Origin: Halobacteria archaeon HArc-gm2
Lineage (GTDB): Archaea > Halobacteriota > Halobacteria > Halobacteriales > Haloarculaceae
Assembly: GCA_025517465.1 (NCBI GenBank)
Contig: JAOPKE010000001.1
Span: forward strand, 62,001 to 126,000
Length of the DNA: 64,000 nt
Direction: 5' to 3'
Shown here: one piece after another, positions 11,791-50,348 of the stretch
Layout: each line of letters begins with the position of its first letter
How positions within the stretch are numbered: the stretch's first letter is position 1
Position numbers and translations under genes: made by a program
Notes under the pieces: generated by a model
What the model was told of the DNA's origin: nothing
The model's database searches: none
The model's input: only the letters and a program-made list of their open reading frames with translations

Positions 11791-12914
11791 TCGTCGTCAC
11801 CTCCGAGTTCGTCTGCCACCTTCTCTCGCACCCACGAAATCCCACCCCAGATGCCGTCGGGCATCGTGACGACGACGACGATGAAGACGACGCCGAGGAT
11901 GAGGTGCCAGAAGTCGCCGATACCGGCCATGCCGCTGACGATGTTCGCGACGTACATGTACAGCCCGGCGCCGAATATCGCGCCGAACAGGGAGCCGGCG
12001 CCGCCGAGGACGGTGATGACGACGATGTCGCCGCTGACCGTCCACTGCAGCGTGTTCTCGATCGGCACGTACGAGCGCTGGATCGTGTAGAGGCTCCCCG
12101 CCACGCCGGCGAAGGCCCCCGAGATGATAAAGGACATGAGCTTGTATCGCCAGACGTTGAGACCGACGAACTCCGCGCGCTGTTCGTTCTCCCGGATCGC
12201 CCGGAGGACGACGCCGTACGGCGAGTTGAGGATGCGGTAGCCGACGACGACCGCGAGGACGAGCGCGGTGCCGGCGAAGACGTACATCCAGTTGCTGACG
12301 AACGCCGTCGGGACGAACGGCACCTGACTGCCCAGGTCGATGACGCCGAGCAGGTTCCCGACCTCGACGCCGGTGAATCCGTTCTCGCCGCCGGTGACGG
12401 TGGACAGCGGCGAGAGGAAGATGTAGTAGATCATCTGTCCGAACGCCAGCGTGAGGATGGCGAAGTAGATGCCGCCGCGGCGCAGCGAGATCCACCCGAT
12501 GACCCAGGCGAGCACCACCGCGACGGTGGTCCCGGCGATGATCATCGCGATGGGGCTCCCGAACACTTCGGCGCTGAAGATGCCGGAGGCGTACGCCGCA
12601 GTGCCCCAGAACATCGCGTGGCCGAACGAGAGCAGCCCGGTGTACCCGAGTAGCAGGTCGTAGCCGATGGCGAAGATGGCCCAGATCAGCGTGAGCGTGA
12701 TGAGGCTGTTGTACCACGTCAGGTCGCTCGGGAGACCGATCGCGTCCGGGACCGTCACCAGGACGAACGGCGCCAGGAGGACGCCGAGGATCGTCAACAC
12801 GGCGACGGTGGACTCCTGTTCGCGGATCGCTGTCCAGCGCTCGTACAGCGACGGCGACTGTTCGCCGTGCTCGGCGCTCTCCGGTTCGGTCTGTGTCTGA
12901 ACCTCGTCGCTCAT
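11787..12914 (-). CDS. livM: Branched-chain amino acid-type ABC transporter, permease LivM
   Basis: 375 residues. After an acidic cytoplasmic N-terminus of about 35 residues there are some nine or ten hydrophobic segments. The LivM hallmark GYTGLLSFGHAMFWG lies near residue 90, and the conserved cytoplasmic loop RAIRENEQRAEFVGLNVWRY, which contacts the ATPases, near residue 245. A third conserved stretch, GGAGSLFGAIFGAGL, follows. It overlaps livH by 4 nt upstream and livG by 4 nt downstream, so all are one transcription unit. Confidence 0.93.
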   Translation of the reverse strand: MSDEVQTQTEPESAEHGEQSPSLYERWTAIREQESTVAVLTILGVLLAPFVLVTVPDAIGLPSDLTWYNSLITLTLIWAIFAIGYDLLLGYTGLLSFGHAMFWGTAAYASGIFSAEVFGSPIAMIIAGTTVAVVLAWVIGWISLRRGGIYFAILTLAFGQMIYYIFLSPLSTVTGGENGFTGVEVGNLLGVIDLGSQVPFVPTAFVSNWMYVFAGTALVLAVVVGYRILNSPYGVVLRAIRENEQRAEFVGLNVWRYKLMSFIISGAFAGVAGSLYTIQRSYVPIENTLQWTVSGDIVVITVLGGAGSLFGAIFGAGLYMYVANIVSGMAGIGDFWHLILGVVFIVVVVTMPDGIWGGISWVREKVADELGGDDE

Positions 12915-31122: not shown

Positions 31123-31494
31123 CTATTCGACCGCGACGGCGTTGACCTGCCCGTCCTGGCCCGGTCGCGAGGTCACGCGGGCACGGCCTTCGCTCGTCTC
31201 CAGCACGGCGCCCTTGGTGATGATGTTTCGTCGCGCGTAGTTGGGGTTCGAGGGGTTCTCCGCGACGTTGTCGATGGTGGCCTCGACGACCTCGCCGCCG
31301 TCGGCGACGCTCGCGACGTCGGTTGTGACGGCGCGGAACTTGGTCGTGTTCCCCTGCGTGTCGACGACCTTCAGCTTCTGTTCGCCGACCTGGGTCTCGG
31401 TGGACTCGTTGCCGAGTTCGTACTTCTTCTTCTTTCGGAACGGTCGCAGTCGCCCACCTGTTCGCTTCCGCGTCGAGCGTCCGTGGTCTTTCAT
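31123..31494 (-). CDS. rps8e: Ribosomal protein eS8
   Basis: 123 residues. Small-subunit protein found in archaea and eukaryotes. The basic N-terminus MKDHGRSTRKRTGGRLRPFR and the end region PNYARRNIITKGAVLETSEG are typical. Start at ATG 31494; the same frame stays open far upstream but that part is the repeat element, not protein. A TATA-like TTCAAGTATC about 30 nt upstream suggests a leaderless mRNA. It stands alone, away from the main ribosomal cluster. Confidence 0.95.
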   Translation of the reverse strand: MKDHGRSTRKRTGGRLRPFRKKKKYELGNESTETQVGEQKLKVVDTQGNTTKFRAVTTDVASVADGGEVVEATIDNVAENPSNPNYARRNIITKGAVLETSEGRARVTSRPGQDGQVNAVAVE

Positions 31495-31585: not shown

Positions 31586-31898
31586 TACCGCAAACAGCCA
31601 GAAAGCCCCCGGTCGCTCGTGGGCTGCGACCGGACCTGCGCGCGCCTTCGGCGTGCTTGGTGGGTCTCGCTCCACGAGCGCCCGGCCCCTTTCAGTCCCG
31701 CCCGGTTGATCATCCGAGCGGACGGGACTGAAAGGGGCGGCCGTCTGCGCGAACCCCGGCGAAGTAAGCACGCGAACGGAGTGAGCGCGCGTGGTTCGAG
31801 AGAGCGGAGCTCTCTCGTCATCACGAAAATCTTCGATTTTCGGACGACAACGAGCCGCGGGAGCGCAGACGGTCGGGGCTTTCTGGCTGTTTGCGGTA
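31586..31898 (+). repeat. Structured dispersed element, copy 1
   Basis: 313 bp in a 529-bp gene-free interval. A perfect 24-bp inverted repeat bounds it (31586-31609 with 31875-31898, around CAGCCAGAAAGCCCC). Inside, 31614-31706 matches the reverse complement of 44285-44377 in 92 of 93 bases. A 16-bp stem pairs 31685-31700 with 31723-31738 (CCCCTTTCAGTCCCG). Further hairpins: GAGAGAGC-GGA-GCTCTCTC and CGAAAATC-TTC-GATTTTCG. No target-site duplication flanks it. Short ORFs across it share peptide strings with copy 2 only because the DNA repeats. Identity unknown: MITE-like element or structured RNA. Confidence 0.8.
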
Positions 31899-32023
31899 GT
31901 AGATGCATCATCGATTGCGGTCGGAACTCCGAAGTCATTCACGACCCACCGAATTCACACTGTAGAGACACGAACGTATCCTAGTCGAAATCCTCATGCC
32001 GGGCCCGGAACCACCCACAGTCG

Positions 32024-32464
32024 ATGAGTTTGCGCACCGCTGTCGCCGCGCCGTTCCGGACGCGGGGCAGCGACCGCATGGGGGAAAGCGAGTTCGTGGT
32101 GGCGCTGTCGCTGGACCGGGACTGGTTTTCGCCCGACCAGGCCAAGCGCCTCGTCGACGTCGCGGCGAGCGAGGGGCTGCTGGAACGCGACGGCGACGAA
32201 CTCGTGGTCGAGTTCGCGGCCGACGAGGTGCAGATTCCGGAGGGCTTCGTCCCCAAGGAGGACGTCCTGCGGGAGCGCTCGACGTTCGAGCGCGTGCTCG
32301 ACGCCGTCGTCGAGACGGGAATCAAGAAACAGGAGGCGGTGGCGGAGATCAACCGCCTCCAGAGTACGCTCGGCGTGACGCTGGAGGCCGCGGCGGTCGT
32401 CTACGCCCGGCGACGCGGCGTCGACGTGGCGGAGTTCGCCGAGCGCGCGCGAGGTGACCTCTGA
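32024..32464 (+). CDS. DUF2240-family protein
   Basis: 146 residues. The sequence has a winged-helix-like first half (MGESEFVVALSLDRDWFSPD, then AKRLVDVAASEGLLERDGDE) and a helical second half (VLDAVVETGIKKQEAVAEIN). This matches my memory of the archaeal DUF2240 family, whose function is unknown. The N-terminal half reads like a small DNA- or RNA-binding module, but no binding partner is evident. Its stop overlaps the next start (TGATG), so the two are translated together. Confidence 0.75.
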   Translation: MSLRTAVAAPFRTRGSDRMGESEFVVALSLDRDWFSPDQAKRLVDVAASEGLLERDGDELVVEFAADEVQIPEGFVPKEDVLRERSTFERVLDAVVETGIKKQEAVAEINRLQSTLGVTLEAAAVVYARRRGVDVAEFAERARGDL

Positions 32465-32853
32465 TGGTCGAGGACCGGATCACCGACGGCAAGCGGATCG
32501 CCCAGTTGCTCGCGTCGGAACTGTCCGGGCTCTCGACGGGCCACGTCGCGCGCCTCGGCGTCGACGACGCAGACCCGGACGCCGAACCGTCCCCCGAGGG
32601 GACCTTCGCCTACGATATCGTTCTGGACGGCCAGCGCGTCGGGTCGGTGTTCGTCCACGAGGAGACCGCACGCGTGGACCTCTCGGTCGGCGATGGGGCG
32701 GCAGATGAATCCGAACTCGGGGGGACGACCACCGACGGACTCTCCCTTTCGACGACCAGCGAGGACCACCTCCGCATTCACGTCGAGTACGGGGCGGCCG
32801 TCAAACGGACCGTCGACCTGCTGGTCGACGTGCTGGACGAGCAGTCCGGATAA
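32464..32853 (+). CDS. Conserved-looking hypothetical protein coupled to the DUF2240 gene
   Basis: 129 residues, acidic, soluble, no signal. It begins MVEDRITDGKRIAQLLASEL and has alternating strand-like and helix-like segments (FAYDIVLDGQRVGSVFVHEE, RIHVEYGAAVKRTVDLLVDV). I do not recognise a family. The one-base overlap with the previous stop strongly suggests an operon. Convergent with the membrane protein gene that follows. Confidence 0.7.
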   Translation: MVEDRITDGKRIAQLLASELSGLSTGHVARLGVDDADPDAEPSPEGTFAYDIVLDGQRVGSVFVHEETARVDLSVGDGAADESELGGTTTDGLSLSTTSEDHLRIHVEYGAAVKRTVDLLVDVLDEQSG

Positions 32854-32874
32854 AACCTCGACCGGATCCCGATG

Positions 32875-33357
32875 CTACCGCGACGGCGCCGATTCCCCGA
32901 TTCGGCGGGACGTCCACGCGAGGAACCCCGTGAGGATGAGCACCGAACCGGTCAGCGCCAGGAGCGCCGCCGTGAGCCAGACGCCGGCCGCGAAGTCGAA
33001 CAGTGGACCGAGCGTCGCCACGGTGATGGGTGAGACGAGGACGAGCAGCGACCCAGTGGCGACGGCGCGTCGCTGGTCCGGCGTGAGCTCGATACCGAGG
33101 GTAAACAGACCGTCGGGTTTCTCCGGTTCCGGCGCTGCCAGGCCGACGCAGAACAGCGGGACCCCGACGAAGACGAGGACGCCGGCGACGACGGACGACC
33201 AGAAAGTGTTCCACGGGGAAATCTGTAGCAGTGCGCCGACGACGACGAGCGAGGACCCGCCGACCAGTCCGATGGGTCGGAGCCGCGGGTCGGCGAGGAA
33301 GGTGTTCAGGTCGGGCAGCGTCTCCGCGACGTGTCCGACGTCGAGCGAACGGGCCAT
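32875..33357 (-). CDS. Small integral membrane protein, function unknown
   Basis: About 160 residues from ATG 33357 (MARSLDVGHVAETLPD). Four hydrophobic segments lie in two pairs: IGLVGGSSLVVVGALLQIS and VVAGVLVFVGVPLFCVGLAA, then TGSLLVLVSPITVATLGPL and VWLTAALLALTGSVLILTGF. The pairs are separated by a short hydrophilic loop (EPEKPDGLFTLGIELTPDQ). Upstream in-frame starts at 33384 and 33498 exist, but the earlier region reads as promoter (AACATATACTCTCC on the plus strand). No family recognised. Confidence 0.65.
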   Translation of the reverse strand: MARSLDVGHVAETLPDLNTFLADPRLRPIGLVGGSSLVVVGALLQISPWNTFWSSVVAGVLVFVGVPLFCVGLAAPEPEKPDGLFTLGIELTPDQRRAVATGSLLVLVSPITVATLGPLFDFAAGVWLTAALLALTGSVLILTGFLAWTSRRIGESAPSR

Positions 33358-33580
33358 ACTATCGCCGTTGATACCCAGAAACATATACTCTCCGGGCCAG
33401 TTATTATCGTTCGATCTCGGGGGAGGCGGAACGACTCTCGAAGAACTGGTGCCGTTCCAGTGACTGGGCACGGTATTCATATCAGGATTGATTCTCAAGT
33501 GAGCCGGTCAGGACGGACCTGTGTCGCCTCGGCCGCGTCGATGAGAAAGGCTTGTGTCGGTCGGCGACCCGACCAACGCT

Positions 33581-34399
33581 ATGCACTTCTTCGAGCGACT
33601 GGACGAACGGATCGAGGCGGTCGACAGCGTCGTCTCGGTCGGCCTCGACCCCGATCCGGACCGACTCCCGCCGAGCGTCGCCGACGCGGACCTCCCGCGC
33701 TGGTCGTTCAACCGCCGTATCATCGACGCGACGCACGAGCACGCGGCCTGTTACAAACCCAACGCGGCGTTCTACGAGGACGCGGACGGCTGGCGAGCCC
33801 TGGAGGAGACTATCGCGTACGCGCACGGGAAGGACGTCCCCGTGCTGCTCGACGCCAAGCGCGGCGACATCGGCAACACCGCCCGCCAGTACGCGGAGAT
33901 TCTCGATATGGCCGACGCCATCACCGCGAACCCCTACATGGGCCAGGACTCGCTCGCACCCTTCCTCCAGCGCACGGGCAAGGGCGTGTTCGTGCTCTGT
34001 CGCACCTCGAACCCTGGCGGTGCGGACCTGCAGGACCTCGAACTCGACGACGGCGGGACGCTGTACGAGCGCGTCGCGGGGCTGGCCGCCGGCTGGAACG
34101 AGTACGGTAACGTCGGCCTCGTCGTCGGCGCGACGAACCCCGACGAACTCGAAGAGATACGGGAAATCGTGCCGGATATCCCGTTCCTCGTCCCCGGCGT
34201 CGGTGCCCAGGGCGGCGACGCGGAGGCCGCCGTCGAGTTCGGCCTCGCCGACGGCGTCGGCCTGGTCAACTCCTCTCGTGGGATCATCTTCGCCGGTGAG
34301 AACGGCGCTCGCGGCGGCGAGCCGCCGGAGGAGGAGTACTTCGGTGCTGCGGGTCGCGCGGCGAAGCGACTCAAGCGGCGGCTCAACGAGTTCCGGTAG
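33581..34399 (+). CDS. pyrF: Orotidine 5'-phosphate decarboxylase
   Basis: About 272 residues. It catalyses the last step of UMP synthesis. The catalytic Asp-Lys-Asp cluster reads LLDAKRGDIGNTARQY near residue 90, a form typical of the longer type-2 enzymes common in bacteria rather than the short archaeal form. The phosphate-binding end reads VPGVGAQGGD and NSSRGIIFAG. I chose ATG 33581 (MHFFERLDERI), because the upstream in-frame start at 33554 adds residues not seen in the family. It stands alone. Confidence 0.95.
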   Translation: MHFFERLDERIEAVDSVVSVGLDPDPDRLPPSVADADLPRWSFNRRIIDATHEHAACYKPNAAFYEDADGWRALEETIAYAHGKDVPVLLDAKRGDIGNTARQYAEILDMADAITANPYMGQDSLAPFLQRTGKGVFVLCRTSNPGGADLQDLELDDGGTLYERVAGLAAGWNEYGNVGLVVGATNPDELEEIREIVPDIPFLVPGVGAQGGDAEAAVEFGLADGVGLVNSSRGIIFAGENGARGGEPPEEEYFGAAGRAAKRLKRRLNEFR

Positions 34400-34432
34400 T
34401 CGAACGCGTTCCCCGGCCCGGTCCGTCCGCTG

Positions 34433-34636
34433 CTAGAACTCGTAGGTGTCGACGCCGTCCGGCAGGTCGTCGGGGTCTAGCGTGTCGGGGTCGCGCTCGC
34501 CCATCTGGACGGCACACTCGACGCAGACGCCGTGGCTCTCGTCCCAGTGGCGCTCGCAGACGAGTTTGCCACAGCGGTCGCAGGTGTGGACGACGTCCCG
34601 TTGCTCACAGATCTCACACAGGCCCGAGACACTCAT
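34433..34636 (-). CDS. Small zinc-finger protein
   Basis: 67 residues. Two cysteine pairs and a CxxC/HxxxH arrangement are seen in order: CEIC, then CDRCGKLVCERHW, then HGVCVEC. This is a B-box or HIT-like double zinc knuckle. The acidic tail DPDTLDPDDLPDGVDTYEF is typical of haloarchaeal micro-zinc-finger proteins, many of which regulate other genes, but the partner here is unknown. ATG 34636 is preferred over 34651. Convergent with pyrF. Confidence 0.8.
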   Translation of the reverse strand: MSVSGLCEICEQRDVVHTCDRCGKLVCERHWDESHGVCVECAVQMGERDPDTLDPDDLPDGVDTYEF

Positions 34637-34742
34637 GTCACTACGTAGCACGTCAAGCGGTTTGAACCTGCTGTCGCCCCGGTCGCTTCACCCGCGCGGT
34701 GTCTTGCGAGAGGCTTACAGTCCTCCCGTGCGAAGCGCCCCT

Positions 34743-35381
34743 GTGCAGTACGACCGTCTCGTCACGGGGCTCGCGGGGGTGCTGGGTGGTATCACCGTCG
34801 TGATGACGGTGCTGGGGCTCCTCTTCGAGCCCCCCATCCTGTTCGTCGCGCTCACCTTTGCCGCCGCGACGTACCTCGTCTACTTCCACTCGAGCGGCCG
34901 GCTGGCGGCGCGTGTCTACCGGACCGTCGAGCGACAGGCGGCCGTGAACGCCGAGCGCGGTGGCCGCCGGCGCCGGCGGACCGACCGCCGGGGCCAGGGC
35001 GACGCCGGGGCCGGTCCGCGCGAGGAGTGGACGCCGCCCAGAGACGGCGCCACGGCCCGGGAAGCGGCGGCCGCTGGGGGCCAGGCTCGCCAGGGAGCGA
35101 CTCACTCGGGCCGGTCTGGCCAGCGACAGGCGGGCCCTCGCGGCCAGCGTCAGCGCCAGCAGCGACGTGGAAGCCGACAGCGCCAACGGGTGCCGAATGC
35201 GAACAGCGGCCCGACCGCGGCAGAGGCCTACCAGACGCTCGGGCTGGACCCCGGTGCCGACGAGTCCTCGGTCAAGCGGGCCTACCGCGAGAAGGTCAAA
35301 CAGGTCCACCCGGACGCCGACGGCGGCGACGAGGAGGCGTTCAAGGAGGTCACCGCGGCCTACGAGCGGTTGACAGACTGA
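34743..35381 (+). CDS. Membrane-anchored J-domain protein with a basic R/Q/G-rich linker
   Basis: About 212 residues from GTG 34743. Two hydrophobic segments (LAGVLGGITVVMTVLGLLF and ILFVALTFAAATYLVYF) open the protein. Next comes about 90 residues rich in Arg, Gln, Gly and Ala, strongly basic and likely disordered. The last 60 residues are a J domain with the HPD motif kept (YREKVKQVHPDADGGDEEAF). It should recruit DnaK to the membrane. A longer in-frame start upstream runs over the zinc-finger gene and is rejected. Confidence 0.85.
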   Translation: MQYDRLVTGLAGVLGGITVVMTVLGLLFEPPILFVALTFAAATYLVYFHSSGRLAARVYRTVERQAAVNAERGGRRRRRTDRRGQGDAGAGPREEWTPPRDGATAREAAAAGGQARQGATHSGRSGQRQAGPRGQRQRQQRRGSRQRQRVPNANSGPTAAEAYQTLGLDPGADESSVKRAYREKVKQVHPDADGGDEEAFKEVTAAYERLTD

Positions 35382-35457
35382 TTCTCCTGCGCGGGGCGAC
35401 ACAATGACCAGAGCCGGCGACCGCAACGCCGATAGTGACACGCGCGCGAGCGAGTCC

Positions 35458-36150
35458 ATGAACGACGTACCGCCGCTGGTCGTCGACGTCGACGGGACAC
35501 TCACCGGCCCGGACCGCGCCGTCGACCCGCGTGTGTTCCCAGTGTTGCGCGAGTGGACAGCACCGGTCGTCGTCGCGACGGGCAAGGCGTTCCCGTTCCC
35601 AATCGCCCTCTGTGATTTCCTCGGCATCGAACTGTGCGTTATCGCCGAGAACGGCGGCGTCGTGTTCGTCGGCCAGACTGGCGCGCTGACCATGGCAGGG
35701 GAGCCAGAGGCAGCGGCGGCTGTCGCCGACGCGTACCGCGAACGGGGCCACGACCTGGGCTGGGGCCCGCTGGACTTCGCCAATCGCTGGCGCGAGACGG
35801 AACTCGCGGTCAGTCGCGACCAGCCGCTGGAACCCCTGCAGGAACTCGCGGTGGACCACGGGCTGGTCGTCGTCGACACCGGCTTCGCCTACCACGTGAA
35901 GGCGCCCGACGTCGACAAGGGAACAGGCCTCGAAATCGTCGCCGACGAACTCGACCTGTCGCCCGAGGCGTTCCTCGCCGTCGGCGATTCGGAGAACGAC
36001 GCGCCGACGTTCGAACTCGCCGGCGAGTCGGTCGCAGTGGTCAACGCCGACGACACGGCGAAAGCGGCCGCAGACCGGGTGACCGACGAAGCGTACGCCG
36101 ACGGCTTTCTGGAAGCTATCGAACCCTACGTCGACTGGGACGGGAACTGA
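35458..36150 (+). CDS. Phosphoglycolate phosphatase (archaeal HAD type)
   Basis: About 230 residues from ATG 35458, the usual length. Motif I is VVDVDGTLTG, and motif II lies in VVVATGKAFPF. The C2-type cap follows, motif III lysine is in VKAPDVDKG and motif IV is AVGDSENDAPTF. It removes phosphate from 2-phosphoglycolate, formed during DNA repair or photorespiration-like reactions. An upstream in-frame ATG at 35404 is possible but adds 18 unconserved residues. It ends 3 nt before the convergent permease gene. Confidence 0.9.
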   Translation: MNDVPPLVVDVDGTLTGPDRAVDPRVFPVLREWTAPVVVATGKAFPFPIALCDFLGIELCVIAENGGVVFVGQTGALTMAGEPEAAAAVADAYRERGHDLGWGPLDFANRWRETELAVSRDQPLEPLQELAVDHGLVVVDTGFAYHVKAPDVDKGTGLEIVADELDLSPEAFLAVGDSENDAPTFELAGESVAVVNADDTAKAAADRVTDEAYADGFLEAIEPYVDWDGN

Positions 36151-36153
36151 CCG

Positions 36154-37231
36154 TCAGTCGGCGCTACCGCCGTCCGTCTCGGCCGCGCCGATGCTGTCGA
36201 CCTCGGCGTGGCGCTCCTCGCCTAGCGCGGTCTGGAGTTTCCCGGCGACCACGGCGATGACGTAGATGGCGACCGCGACGAGGACGATGACGCCGCCGGC
36301 GGTCGCGCCGCCGTAGTAGGAGACCCCGATTCCCAGTGTAACGGCCAGTTCCGCCAGGACGACCGAGACGAGTAGCGACTCCGAGAAACTCCGGGATATC
36401 TGGGTCGCCGCCGCCACTGGAACCACGAGCATCGCGGCGACGAGGATGACGCCCATGATCTGCATCGCGCCGACGACGACCAAGCATCGCGGCGACGAGG
36501 ATGACGCCCATGATCTGCATCGCGCCGACGACGACCAGCGCGGTCAACATCACGAGGACGCGGTTGTACCAGTCCACCGGGATGCCCGAGACCTCCGCCG
36601 CGGTCTCGTCGAAGGTGACGTACAGGAGCTGATTCCGGGTTACCGCGACCGTCGCGACGATGACGAGGAAGAGGACGAGCAGTATCGCCGCGTTCTCCGC
36701 CGAGACGGTCGAGAGGTTGCCGAACAGGTACTGGTTGATGCCGACTGCCAGCCCGCCGGCGTTGACGCTGATGAGCGTCGTCCCCAGGGCGAACCCCGTA
36801 GAGAGGACGATAGCCATCGAGACGTCGTTGTAGGCATCAGTCACCTCGGAGATCAGCTCGATGGCCAGCGCGGCGAGCACCGAGACGACGACGGCGGTCA
36901 GGTACGGCGAGACGCCGAGTTCCAGTACCGCGTTAAGGAACAGCCCGACGGCGACGCCGGCGAAGGCGGTGTGGGCCAGCGCGTCGCCGATGAGAGCGAG
37001 CTGTCGGTGTACCAGGAAGGTTCCCACCAGGGGCGCCATCACGCCGATGCAGAGGCCCACCAGTATCGCCCGGTGCATGAACTGGTACTGGAGCAGTTCC
37101 AGCCCGGTCCACCTCGCGAGCCAGAACATGCCATCCGACCAGAGCGAGAGGAACCAGTAGATCGGCGTGAGCAGGAGGTCCAGCGGCCCGGTCTGCAGGG
37201 CGGTGACCCCAGCGACGGCGGCGCCCGTCAT
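36154..37231 (-). pseudogene. znuB: Zn/Mn ABC transporter permease, frameshifted by a 55-bp tandem duplication
   Basis: ABC-3 family permease. From ATG 37231 the frame codes normally for about 249 residues (LIGDALAHTAFAGVAVG and the family helices), up to GAMQIMGVILVAAML. Bases 36428-36482 and 36483-36537 are identical 55-bp copies. As 55 is not a multiple of three, the second copy throws the frame into Arg-rich text that stops at 36164. The true C-terminus (VVPVAAATQISRSFSES) continues in the other frame to the stop at 36154. Deleting one copy gives an intact reading frame of 340 residues. A TTG at 36483 could in principle restart the tail. Confidence 0.88.
36428..36537. repeat. Perfect 55-bp tandem duplication inside the permease gene
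   Basis: Copy 1 is 36428-36482 and copy 2 is 36483-36537, both starting AGCATCGCGGCGACGAGGAT and ending GACGACGACCA. There is no mismatch between them, so the event is recent, reversible or an assembly artefact. Confidence 0.97.
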
Positions 37232-44256: not shown

Positions 44257-44446
44257 ACAGCAAGAAAGCCCCGCCTGAACTATCACCGGGCGGGACTGAA
44301 AGGGGCCGGGCGCTCGTGGAGCGAGACCCACCAAGCACGCCGAAGGCGCGCGCAGGTGCGGTCGCAGCCCACGAGCGCCGGGAGAACAAAGCTCTCCCGA
44401 GGAAACGGCGCTCCGCGCCGTGACCGCCCGGGGGCTTTCTTGCTGT
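44257..44446 (-). repeat. Structured dispersed element, copy 2 (inverted relative to copy 1)
   Basis: 190 bp in a 285-bp gene-free interval. A perfect 16-bp inverted repeat bounds it: ACAGCAAGAAAGCCCC at 44257-44272 and its complement at 44431-44446. Bases 44285-44377 are the reverse complement of copy 1 core 31614-31706 with one difference. Copy 2 lacks the long GAGAGAGC and CGAAAATC hairpins of copy 1 but has its own: GGGAGA-ACAAAGC-TCTCCC (about 44380-44398) and GGCGC-TCC-GCGCC. The core itself is closed by CGCTCGTGG/CCACGAGCG and contains CGCC-GAA-GGCG. Confidence 0.8.
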
Positions 44447-48411: not shown

Positions 48412-48481
48412 GGGCTCTTTTTAAGGTAGGCAAGATGTGTTATCGCTACAGTCTAGTGGCGTGACGTGGAAGCGTCACGGC
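48412..48481 (+). promoter_or_regulatory. Promoter and leader hairpin of the ribosomal superoperon
   Basis: CTTTTTAAGG at about 48416-48425 is a TATA element some 55-60 nt before ATG 48482, placing the transcript start near 48446-48450. The short leader then contains a hairpin, CGTGACG (48460-48466) pairing with CGTCACG (48473-48479) around TGGAAG, ending 2 nt before the ATG. No Shine-Dalgarno is seen. It could control translation of the first gene. Confidence 0.5.
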
Positions 48482-49324
48482 ATGACGACCAGCGTACTCG
48501 TGCCGTCTTCCCTCGTACGGGAAGCCGAGGACAGACGCGAGGCGACTCGCAAAATCGGATACGTGGCCCGCGCGGCCACGATATTCGACGTCGATCGGCT
48601 AACGGTCTTCCCGGACCCTGACGGGGCCGGGAAGTGGGAAGACGGGTTCGTTCGTACCGTCCTGCGGTACGCCGCGACGCCCCCCTACCTCCGAAAGGAG
48701 GCCTGGGGCAAGCGGGACGAACTGGAGTACGTTGGCGTCCTGCCGCCGCTCCGCGTCCGTTCACAGACCGGCTCCGGATCTGAGGGTTCGGGGTCGTTAA
48801 GACAGGGAATCGTGACCGAGGTCGGAGCTGATGGGCGCGTTCGGGTCAATTGCGGACTGCAACACCCAGCCTCCCTCCCCGTTCCAGACGGTATGGACGT
48901 GGGCGAGGGGGAGCGCGTCACCGTCAGGGTCTCTTCGCGACGGCCAGTCCGGGCGAAACTCGTCGACGTAGCCCCACCGGGGTACGTCGTCGACGCTTCG
49001 GACCTCTCTACGGCGCTCGCGCGTGACGACGCAGGGCTCACTATCGCCGCTTCGCGGTACGGTGAGCGCCTGACCGTCACACGGCTCGGCGATCTGGTCG
49101 AGCAGCGTGAAGCCGACGGCGGCATGACAGTCGCCTTCGGGGCACCCGAACGCGGGTTGCCCCCCATACTCGGATTGGACCCGGACGACGTCTGCGGAGA
49201 CCACGCGGACGACGACACAGGGTTCGACCTCTGGCTGAATACGGTTCCAAACCAGGGGAGCGAGGTCGTGCGAACCGAAGAAGCGATGTTCGCCTCCCTC
49301 GCCCCGCTGACCCTCACGGAGTGA
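48482..49324 (+). CDS. Putative SPOUT-type RNA uridine N3-methyltransferase (DUF171)
   Basis: About 280 residues. The opening MTTSVLVPSSLVREAEDRRE, IGYVARAATIFDVDRLTVFP and the later TLAARYG-like region ITIAASRYGERLTVTRLG fit the SPOUT family with an inserted OB-like domain, thought to methylate rRNA. The gene is usually found just before uL3 in haloarchaea, as here. I chose ATG 48482 (an in-frame ATG at 48437 lies near the expected start of transcription and looks like leader). Its stop is followed by uL3 after 7 nt. Confidence 0.85.
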   Translation: MTTSVLVPSSLVREAEDRREATRKIGYVARAATIFDVDRLTVFPDPDGAGKWEDGFVRTVLRYAATPPYLRKEAWGKRDELEYVGVLPPLRVRSQTGSGSEGSGSLRQGIVTEVGADGRVRVNCGLQHPASLPVPDGMDVGEGERVTVRVSSRRPVRAKLVDVAPPGYVVDASDLSTALARDDAGLTIAASRYGERLTVTRLGDLVEQREADGGMTVAFGAPERGLPPILGLDPDDVCGDHADDDTGFDLWLNTVPNQGSEVVRTEEAMFASLAPLTLTE

Positions 49325-49331
49325 GAATCCG

Positions 49332-50348
49332 ATGCCACAACCAAGCAGACCACGAAAAGGCTCGCTGGGCTTCGGCCCACGCAAGCGCGCGGAAAGCGAA
49401 ACGCCGCGCTTCAACAGCTGGCCCGACGACGACGGCCAGCCAGGCGTCCAGGGGTTCGCCGGTTACAAGGCGGGCATGACACACGTCACGCTCGTCAACG
49501 ACGAACCCAACTCCGCCCGCGAAGGGATGGAGGAGACCGTCCCGGTGACGGTCGTCGAGACGCCGCCTGTGCGTGCAGTCGCAGTCCGAGCCTACGAAGA
49601 CACGCCGTACGGCCAGCGTCCGCTCACGGAAGTCTGGGCCGACGAGTTCCACTCGGAACTCGATCGCGCTCTGGACGTTCCCGAGAACAACGACGCTGAC
49701 GCCGCAGAGGAACAGATCAGAGACGCACTGGAAGCCGGTAACCTCGGAGACGTGCGCGTCATCACGCACACTGTCCCCGACGAACTGGTCAACGTGCCCA
49801 AGAAGAAGCCCGACGTGATGGAGACTCGCGTCGGCGGTGGATCGGTCGAGGACCGCCTCGACCACGCCCTCGACCTGCTCGCCGACGGCGGCGACCACTC
49901 GATGAACGACGTGTTCCGCGCCGGCGAGTACGCCGACATCGCGGCCGTCACCAAGGGCAAAGGGACCCAGGGCCCCGTCAAGCGATGGGGCGTCCAGAAG
50001 CGGAAGGGCAAGCACGCCCGCCAGGGCTGGCGCCGACGTATCGGCAACCTCGGCCCGTGGAACCCCTCGCGGGTCCGCTCGACGGTCCCCCAGCAGGGCC
50101 AGACCGGCTACCACCAGCGCACCGAACTCAACAAGCGCATCATCGACATCGGCGAGGGCGACGACGCCTCCGTCGACGGCGGCTTCGTCAACTACGGCGA
50201 GGTCGACGGGCCGTACACGCTCGTCAAGGGCTCGGTGCCCGGGCCGGACCAGCGCGTCGTGCGCTTCCGACCGGCGGTGCGTCCGAACGACCAGCCGCGC
50301 CTCGACCCCGAGGTGCGCTTCGTCTCCACCGCATCGAACCAGGGATAA
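49332..50348 (+). CDS. rpl3: Ribosomal protein uL3
   Basis: 338 residues, archaeal length. Large-subunit protein reaching into the peptidyl-transferase centre. The N-terminus MPQPSRPRKGSLGFGPRKRA and the long basic loop around KRWGVQKRKGKHARQGWRR, which enters the subunit core, are intact. Second gene of the superoperon, 3 nt before uL4. Confidence 0.98.
   Translation: MPQPSRPRKGSLGFGPRKRAESETPRFNSWPDDDGQPGVQGFAGYKAGMTHVTLVNDEPNSAREGMEETVPVTVVETPPVRAVAVRAYEDTPYGQRPLTEVWADEFHSELDRALDVPENNDADAAEEQIRDALEAGNLGDVRVITHTVPDELVNVPKKKPDVMETRVGGGSVEDRLDHALDLLADGGDHSMNDVFRAGEYADIAAVTKGKGTQGPVKRWGVQKRKGKHARQGWRRRIGNLGPWNPSRVRSTVPQQGQTGYHQRTELNKRIIDIGEGDDASVDGGFVNYGEVDGPYTLVKGSVPGPDQRVVRFRPAVRPNDQPRLDPEVRFVSTASNQG

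Follow-up and report, generated by a model that had tools for sequence, protein, structure and literature searches.

A haloarchaeal MITE-type repeat with a probable IS6-derived core and exchangeable inverted hairpin cassettes

Examination of a 64,000-nucleotide stretch of the genome of Halobacteria archaeon HArc-gm2 (hereafter the window) revealed, at positions 31586-31898, an element which probably represents one copy of a mobile repeat of haloarchaea that lacks a transposase (MITE-type) and combines an IS6-derived core with exchangeable inverted hairpin cassettes. We propose that its ancestor was a palindromic core that would have been moved in trans by a transposase of the IS6 family (ISH14/ISH29-like), with 8-bp target duplications as the result. 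A hairpin cassette of about 105 bp lies on each side of this core in inverted orientation. Cassettes would probably be replaced when copies recombine or undergo gene conversion at the joints GAAAGCCC, CCCTTTCAGTCC and TCGTSATSACGA, which are conserved, or, alternatively, might be transferred as folded hairpins; because each cassette would be inherited or copied whole, the stems remain strictly Watson-Crick complementary, and copies would persist solely between genes. The IS6 step is documented for copies in several other lineages, and we infer it for the window copy, whose outer ends are without IS6 repeats. The MITE part is of a known kind, the paired, strictly complementary and freely exchanged cassettes nested at fixed joints being an unusual variant. 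A search of the open-access literature found no description of this haloarchaeal repeat family.

The structural features listed in an initial annotation of the sequence were recovered. The ends of the element, 31586-31609 (TACCGCAAACAGCCAGAAAGCCCC; family consensus ACCGCAAACARCNNGAAAGCCC) and 31875-31898 (GGGGCTTTCTGGCTGTTTGCGGTA), form the perfect 24-bp terminal inverted repeat described there, 100% complementary over 24 nt, and we estimate the probability that such a repeat arises by chance in about 313 bp at roughly 1e-10. The arm A cassette (31606-31695, plus strand) has the layout CCCC-stem...stem'-GCCCCTTTCAG and is the unit missing from one-armed copies (junction GAAAG^TCCC). A central palindrome (31696-31727, TCCCGCCC-loop-CGGACGGGA) separates the two arm units. 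The inner stem, first given as 16 bp, is actually longer and pairs 31685-31704 (plus strand, GCCCCTTTCAGTCCCGCCCG) with 31719-31738 (minus strand, CGGACGGGACTGAAAGGGGC), 20 nt at 95%, so that the 16 bp first listed form part of it. The arm B cassette (31728-31878, minus strand) is an inverted copy of the arm module into which a double-hairpin module (31791-31847, minus strand) is inserted at CTCGYTG^CGC. This module contains the two 8-bp stems noted earlier, GAGAGAGC/GCTCTCTC at 31798-31805/31809-31816 and CGAAAATC/GATTTTCG at 31824-31831/31835-31842, linked by TCGTCATCACGA.

Folded as DNA, a 325-nt stretch reaches -125.4 kcal/mol versus -72.2 +/- 3.7 for shuffled sequences (z -14.3), a value equalled by 0 of 100 shuffles; folded as RNA, it has a z of -14.3. 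The predicted fold is a four-way junction of outer stem, arm A, central stem and arm B, and the element is predicted to be able to extrude as a four-way DNA cruciform. It had been stated that no gene explains the element, and indeed the open reading frames crossing it have no Pfam match, while the divergent flanking genes, rps8e (31123-31494, minus strand) and a DUF2240 gene (32024-32464, plus strand), lie outside. A second family copy is present in the window at 44264-44439; the sequence of its right arm, at 44300-44379, is almost the same as that of arm A in the first. Elsewhere in the window, positions 48828-48927 match the Rfam L4-Archaeoglobi ribosomal leader with 68 bits (gathering score 34.5); this match falls inside an open reading frame (48437-49324), not in a leader region, and the next frames, starting at 49332 and 50352, have translations resembling uL3 and uL4.

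The element is one of many. BLAST located at least 66 places in its own genome (4.25 Mb, 18 contigs), with 40 of 196 candidates scored, and a motif scan of contig C1:1-360000 found 18 copies, which extrapolates to about 200 per genome. The copies are dispersed and carry no transposase gene, as judged from the absence of Pfam matches in the element's reading frames. Hairpin strings had been said to be common in haloarchaea, and this is borne out by the many copies and by matches in 53 of the 59 relatives tried, some congeners being copy-poor (3-7 versus more than 20 copies). When 84,980 prokaryote genomes were scanned with the central palindrome, at least 109 stretches matched, and all 80 named stretches among the matches listed were haloarchaeal. 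Partial matches occur in 18 haloarchaeal plasmids of a plasmid collection, and a phage collection searched with the element gave no match.

The family consensus order is ACCGCAAACARCNNGAAAGCCC / arm / GCCCCTTTCAKTCCCRCCC-centre-GGGYGGGAMTGAAAGGGGC / inverted arm / GGGCTTTCNNGYTGTTTGCGGT, the outer-repeat consensus being built on 294 element ends, and at motif level the two halves are reverse complements of each other. Arm length modes lie at 101-112 nt, with about 105 nt typical. The double-hairpin module, inserted at CTCGCTG^CGC, is found in 30 of 297 arms, whose median length is 166 with the module versus 109 without, and arm B of the window copy belongs to this long class. In a second subfamily the joints are CCCTCG/CGAGGG and the inner region is longer. 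Several individual copies show further peculiarities. The centre of a copy on contig C16 of the same genome (L029) is split from about position 1735 by an unrelated insertion-sequence-like stretch; its sister-species counterpart (L031) is unbroken and also lacks the extra arm hairpins. In the right flanks of two Halosimplex copies (L190 and L207), short tandem arrays (CGACCGAGACTGTAT units; CAGGAACCG units) abut the outer repeat and extend its sequence, and look as though the element end was amplified. Genome-wide, the roughly 60 bp outside copy ends display a period-3 pattern of G which fades past 60 bp; coding flanks were considered as its source and rejected by an open-frame check.

The earlier suggestion of a small non-autonomous mobile element is supported by the many dispersed copies, by presence and absence between species and by related copies with IS6-type ends and 8-bp target duplications. 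The rps8e-DUF2240 intergenic region is empty in five congeners (G001, G002, G003, G004 and G011) and filled in the source genome (G000) and its sister species (G006), which indicates that the element arrived within the genus. Further copies are likewise present in one sister species but missing from the other. An exact empty site was not found in the sister species because the flanks are too diverged, and for the one IS6-bounded copy tried, a congener yielded the right flank only. Window positions 31594-36482, which cover the right flank and the DUF2240 gene, have a 98.8% identical duplicate over 4.9 kb in the same genome (C13:465314-470222; L002, L078). This duplicate sits at the end of contig C13 with its junction inside an element copy, and may reflect either a rearrangement mediated by the element or an assembly made from mixed strains.

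Haloarchaeal IS6 elements start with GGYRGTGTTCAGATAAG. This sequence was found with at most 2 mismatches at 18 of 293 element ends (chance 0.8%), of which 12 have it exactly 35 nt beyond GAAAG. Copies in Halonotius, Halomicroarcula and several uncultured haloarchaea carry GTGTTYAGNTAAG at this distance outside GAAAG, and this sequence is the terminal repeat of IS6-family elements resident there. Sixteen copies from other lineages have IS6 ends on both sides, and ten of these possess a direct repeat matching at 7/8 or 8/8 positions, versus 5% of random pairings. The direct repeats, for example GTACTCAC, GTCCCCCT, AGCGCTCG and TGGCTACT, are located directly outside the GGYR ends. Published haloarchaeal IS6 elements generate 8-bp duplications, and ISfinder includes a haloarchaeal IS6 MITE, MITEHarch3 (PMC6807381, PMC7986276). 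The presence of IS6-family terminal repeats and 8-bp target duplications in some lineages therefore suggests that the element moves as an IS6-type MITE. A general direct-repeat scan of all copies rose barely above background, the signal being resolved only after restriction to IS6-ended copies. A scan for a fixed target duplication beside the 24-bp repeat (offsets 6-69, lengths 2-9) gave nothing clear, and target duplications were absent around the outer repeat AACTACTGTGTTGATCA of four loci (L010, L021, L022 and L024). In the source genome, a search detected no IS6 transposase, and neither the window copy nor any of 62 element ends showed a clear IS6 repeat at up to 2 mismatches, so that the mechanism for the window copy is drawn from relatives only. 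No 8-bp target duplication was seen at this copy either, and it would have lost its IS6-type ends or never had them.

Haloarchaeal IS6 MITEs (MITEHarch3; parents such as ISH14, ISH29 and ISHarch12) resemble the IS6-bounded copies in their IS6-type terminal repeats (GGYRGTGTTYAG...), 8-bp target duplication and lack of a transposase gene. Complete copies here measure about 330-340 bp, and the two MITEs listed for the IS6 family measure 227 and 336 bp (PMC7986276, PMC6807381). In contrast to MITEHarch3, which was compared by description only, the present element has a four-way palindromic body whose hairpin cassettes can be swapped, and recognisable IS6 ends are missing from most copies, that of the window among them.

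The behaviour of the arms was most apparent between sister species, whose collinear blocks are mostly 88-95% identical. At the rps8e locus, the sister species shares the outer repeat and, almost unchanged, the centre, but its arm A has another stem and arm B is missing. Ten of 12 same-locus arm pairs are 29-88% identical, with backbones at about 93% and unrelated arms averaging 69%. Arm A of the window is 83% identical to its ortholog and 98% identical to an arm on another contig of the sister species (L031). Arms are swapped between copies as units and behave as cassettes. Additionally, nine one-armed copies from several genera, eight obtained by an exact pattern scan of 293 genomes plus one further locus (L050), have one common junction, GAAAG^TCCCRCC; a reversed control pattern gave 0 matches in the 293 genomes versus 8. 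Sharing of this exact junction implies that the arm is a unit precisely lost or gained. The junction lies inside the palindromic core and shows at most a 2-bp AG repeat and no target duplication. Slippage between CCCC repeats was rejected as its source, the expected product GAAAGCCCCTTTCA occurring 0 times in the loci examined versus 12 exact-junction matches. No armless core was found among the 293 genomes, and the arms may thus be integral rather than later insertions.

A more far-reaching reading, which we put forward tentatively and regard as rather doubtful, is that the hairpin arms constitute a separate class of mobile DNA. They would be cassettes of about 100 bp with arbitrary stems, precisely excised and exchanged at fixed joints within cruciform-forming hosts by an enzyme reading the joint and the shape, not the stem sequence, and a second-level double-hairpin cassette would be accepted at one fixed site. 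Comparison of the sister species also revealed a separate family of small inserts with strong variable inverted ends (ATAGTGGTGGTTGTAA..., ATAGTGTCGGTCGTAC..., CAGACGGACTGTCGTAATT...), each present in one species and missing from the other. They are located in the source genome at L062 ~12045-12130 (G000 C1:52045) and C1:216730 (L070), and in the sister species at G006 C1:1374693, 1381112 and 1568637. Relative to window position ~48100, G006 C1:1441898-1442034 (L115) holds an additional hairpin-rich insert of about 136 bp beside a tRNA gene, with its flank duplicated.

The closest known counterpart of the arms is SMR-A from Haloquadratum walsbyi, a repeat of about 110 bp with inverted terminal repeats and no target duplication, which lies inside palindromes and whose mobilisation was called 'enigmatic'; different repeats at one position are known there as 'SwitchRepeats' (PMC3119063). 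By published description, the arms fit SMR-A (HqIRS42, HqIRS43 and HqIRS55) in every testable feature, including size (modes of 101-112 nt, with 12-bp terminal stems 94% paired, versus about 110 bp). The whole element could accordingly be read as an SMR-A/PATE composite, in which small mobile repeats of about 110 bp, the arms, were inserted in the near-terminal palindromes of IS605-type elements. Such a composite would agree with the size, terminal complementarity, location within palindromes and missing target duplication of the arms, with their 'SwitchRepeats' likeness (PMC3119063) and with the exact unit junction of the nine one-armed copies. We nevertheless judge it improbable, since the paired motifs are absent from 12 of 12 tnpB loci and from the single tnpA locus of the source genome and several lineages have outer ends of the IS6 rather than the IS605 type. 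SMR-A targets IS605-type elements, whereas the arms form an inverted pair in an IS6-type palindromic core, each with its own stem sequence.

Stem pairing was analysed in 175 standard arms. Their 12-bp basal stems are 94% Watson-Crick paired, versus 45% with shuffled right strands; 167 of the 175 are distinct, and most stem positions show three or four pair types. The variable (NN) positions of the outer repeat likewise covary within each copy (0.81-0.83 versus 0.28-0.38 shuffled). This massive covariation in the arm stems, together with the very stable fold and the conserved internal-loop motifs CTCGCTGCGC and GTGCTTGCGTCG, speaks for a structured non-coding RNA (sRNA, leader or ribozyme-like) made from each copy, its stems held by compensatory mutation, and a folded RNA with a closing stem had been the other possibility raised by the initial annotation. 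It is not supported, and we consider an RNA unlikely. Mismatches in the arm stems (G.T 15, A.C 36; jointly under 3%) show no G.U-type excess, unlike RNA stems, and the fact that G.T pairs are not favoured suggests a DNA rather than an RNA structure. None of the Rfam covariance models matched the element at gathering score, the one match being at chance level (E 0.81). Moreover, no link to gene or transcription direction was seen, copies sharing a locus have wholly different arms, and since the two halves are a single DNA module in opposite orientations, one is always antisense to the other.

Genomic placement was assessed over 360 kb (84% coding), with genes called by a simple method based on codon usage. 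Each of the 18 copies examined is intergenic, 8 between tandem, 5 between divergent and 5 between convergent genes, near the expectation from intergenic space. This unoriented placement argues against a role as terminator, leader or promoter and agrees with insertion combined with selection against gene disruption. A cis-acting chromosomal element selected at gene borders (terminator, insulator, or protein- or gyrase-binding site) would be consistent with strictly intergenic copies and with class-wide conservation of structure, but is very unlikely given that convergent and divergent sites are not favoured, that congeners are without the element at the same loci and that some congeners hold few copies.

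Bacterial REPINs (REP-RAYT) similarly join two inverted hairpin units into one larger palindrome (PMC3116915) and occur in hundreds of intergenic copies, but an element that a RAYT/Y1 transposase moves in the form of single-stranded hairpins is scarcely credible, since the family has no associated Y1 transposase (the one such gene in the genome, L277, has no element motifs within 1.5 kb), its arm stem sequences are unrelated, and related copies have IS6 ends and 8-bp duplications.

As a probable IS6-derived MITE with exchangeable cassettes, the family would account for hairpin-dense intergenic DNA that many haloarchaeal genomes contain and that can readily be mistaken for RNAs, and would supply both its origin, in IS6-type transposition, and its architecture. 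Perfect pairing of stems is usually taken as a sign of RNA selection; here the same pattern points to DNA cassettes copied whole, which calls for caution in RNA discovery based on covariation. Finally, cassette exchange offers a direct way to test, in a culturable haloarchaeon, how 'SMR-A' repeats move.
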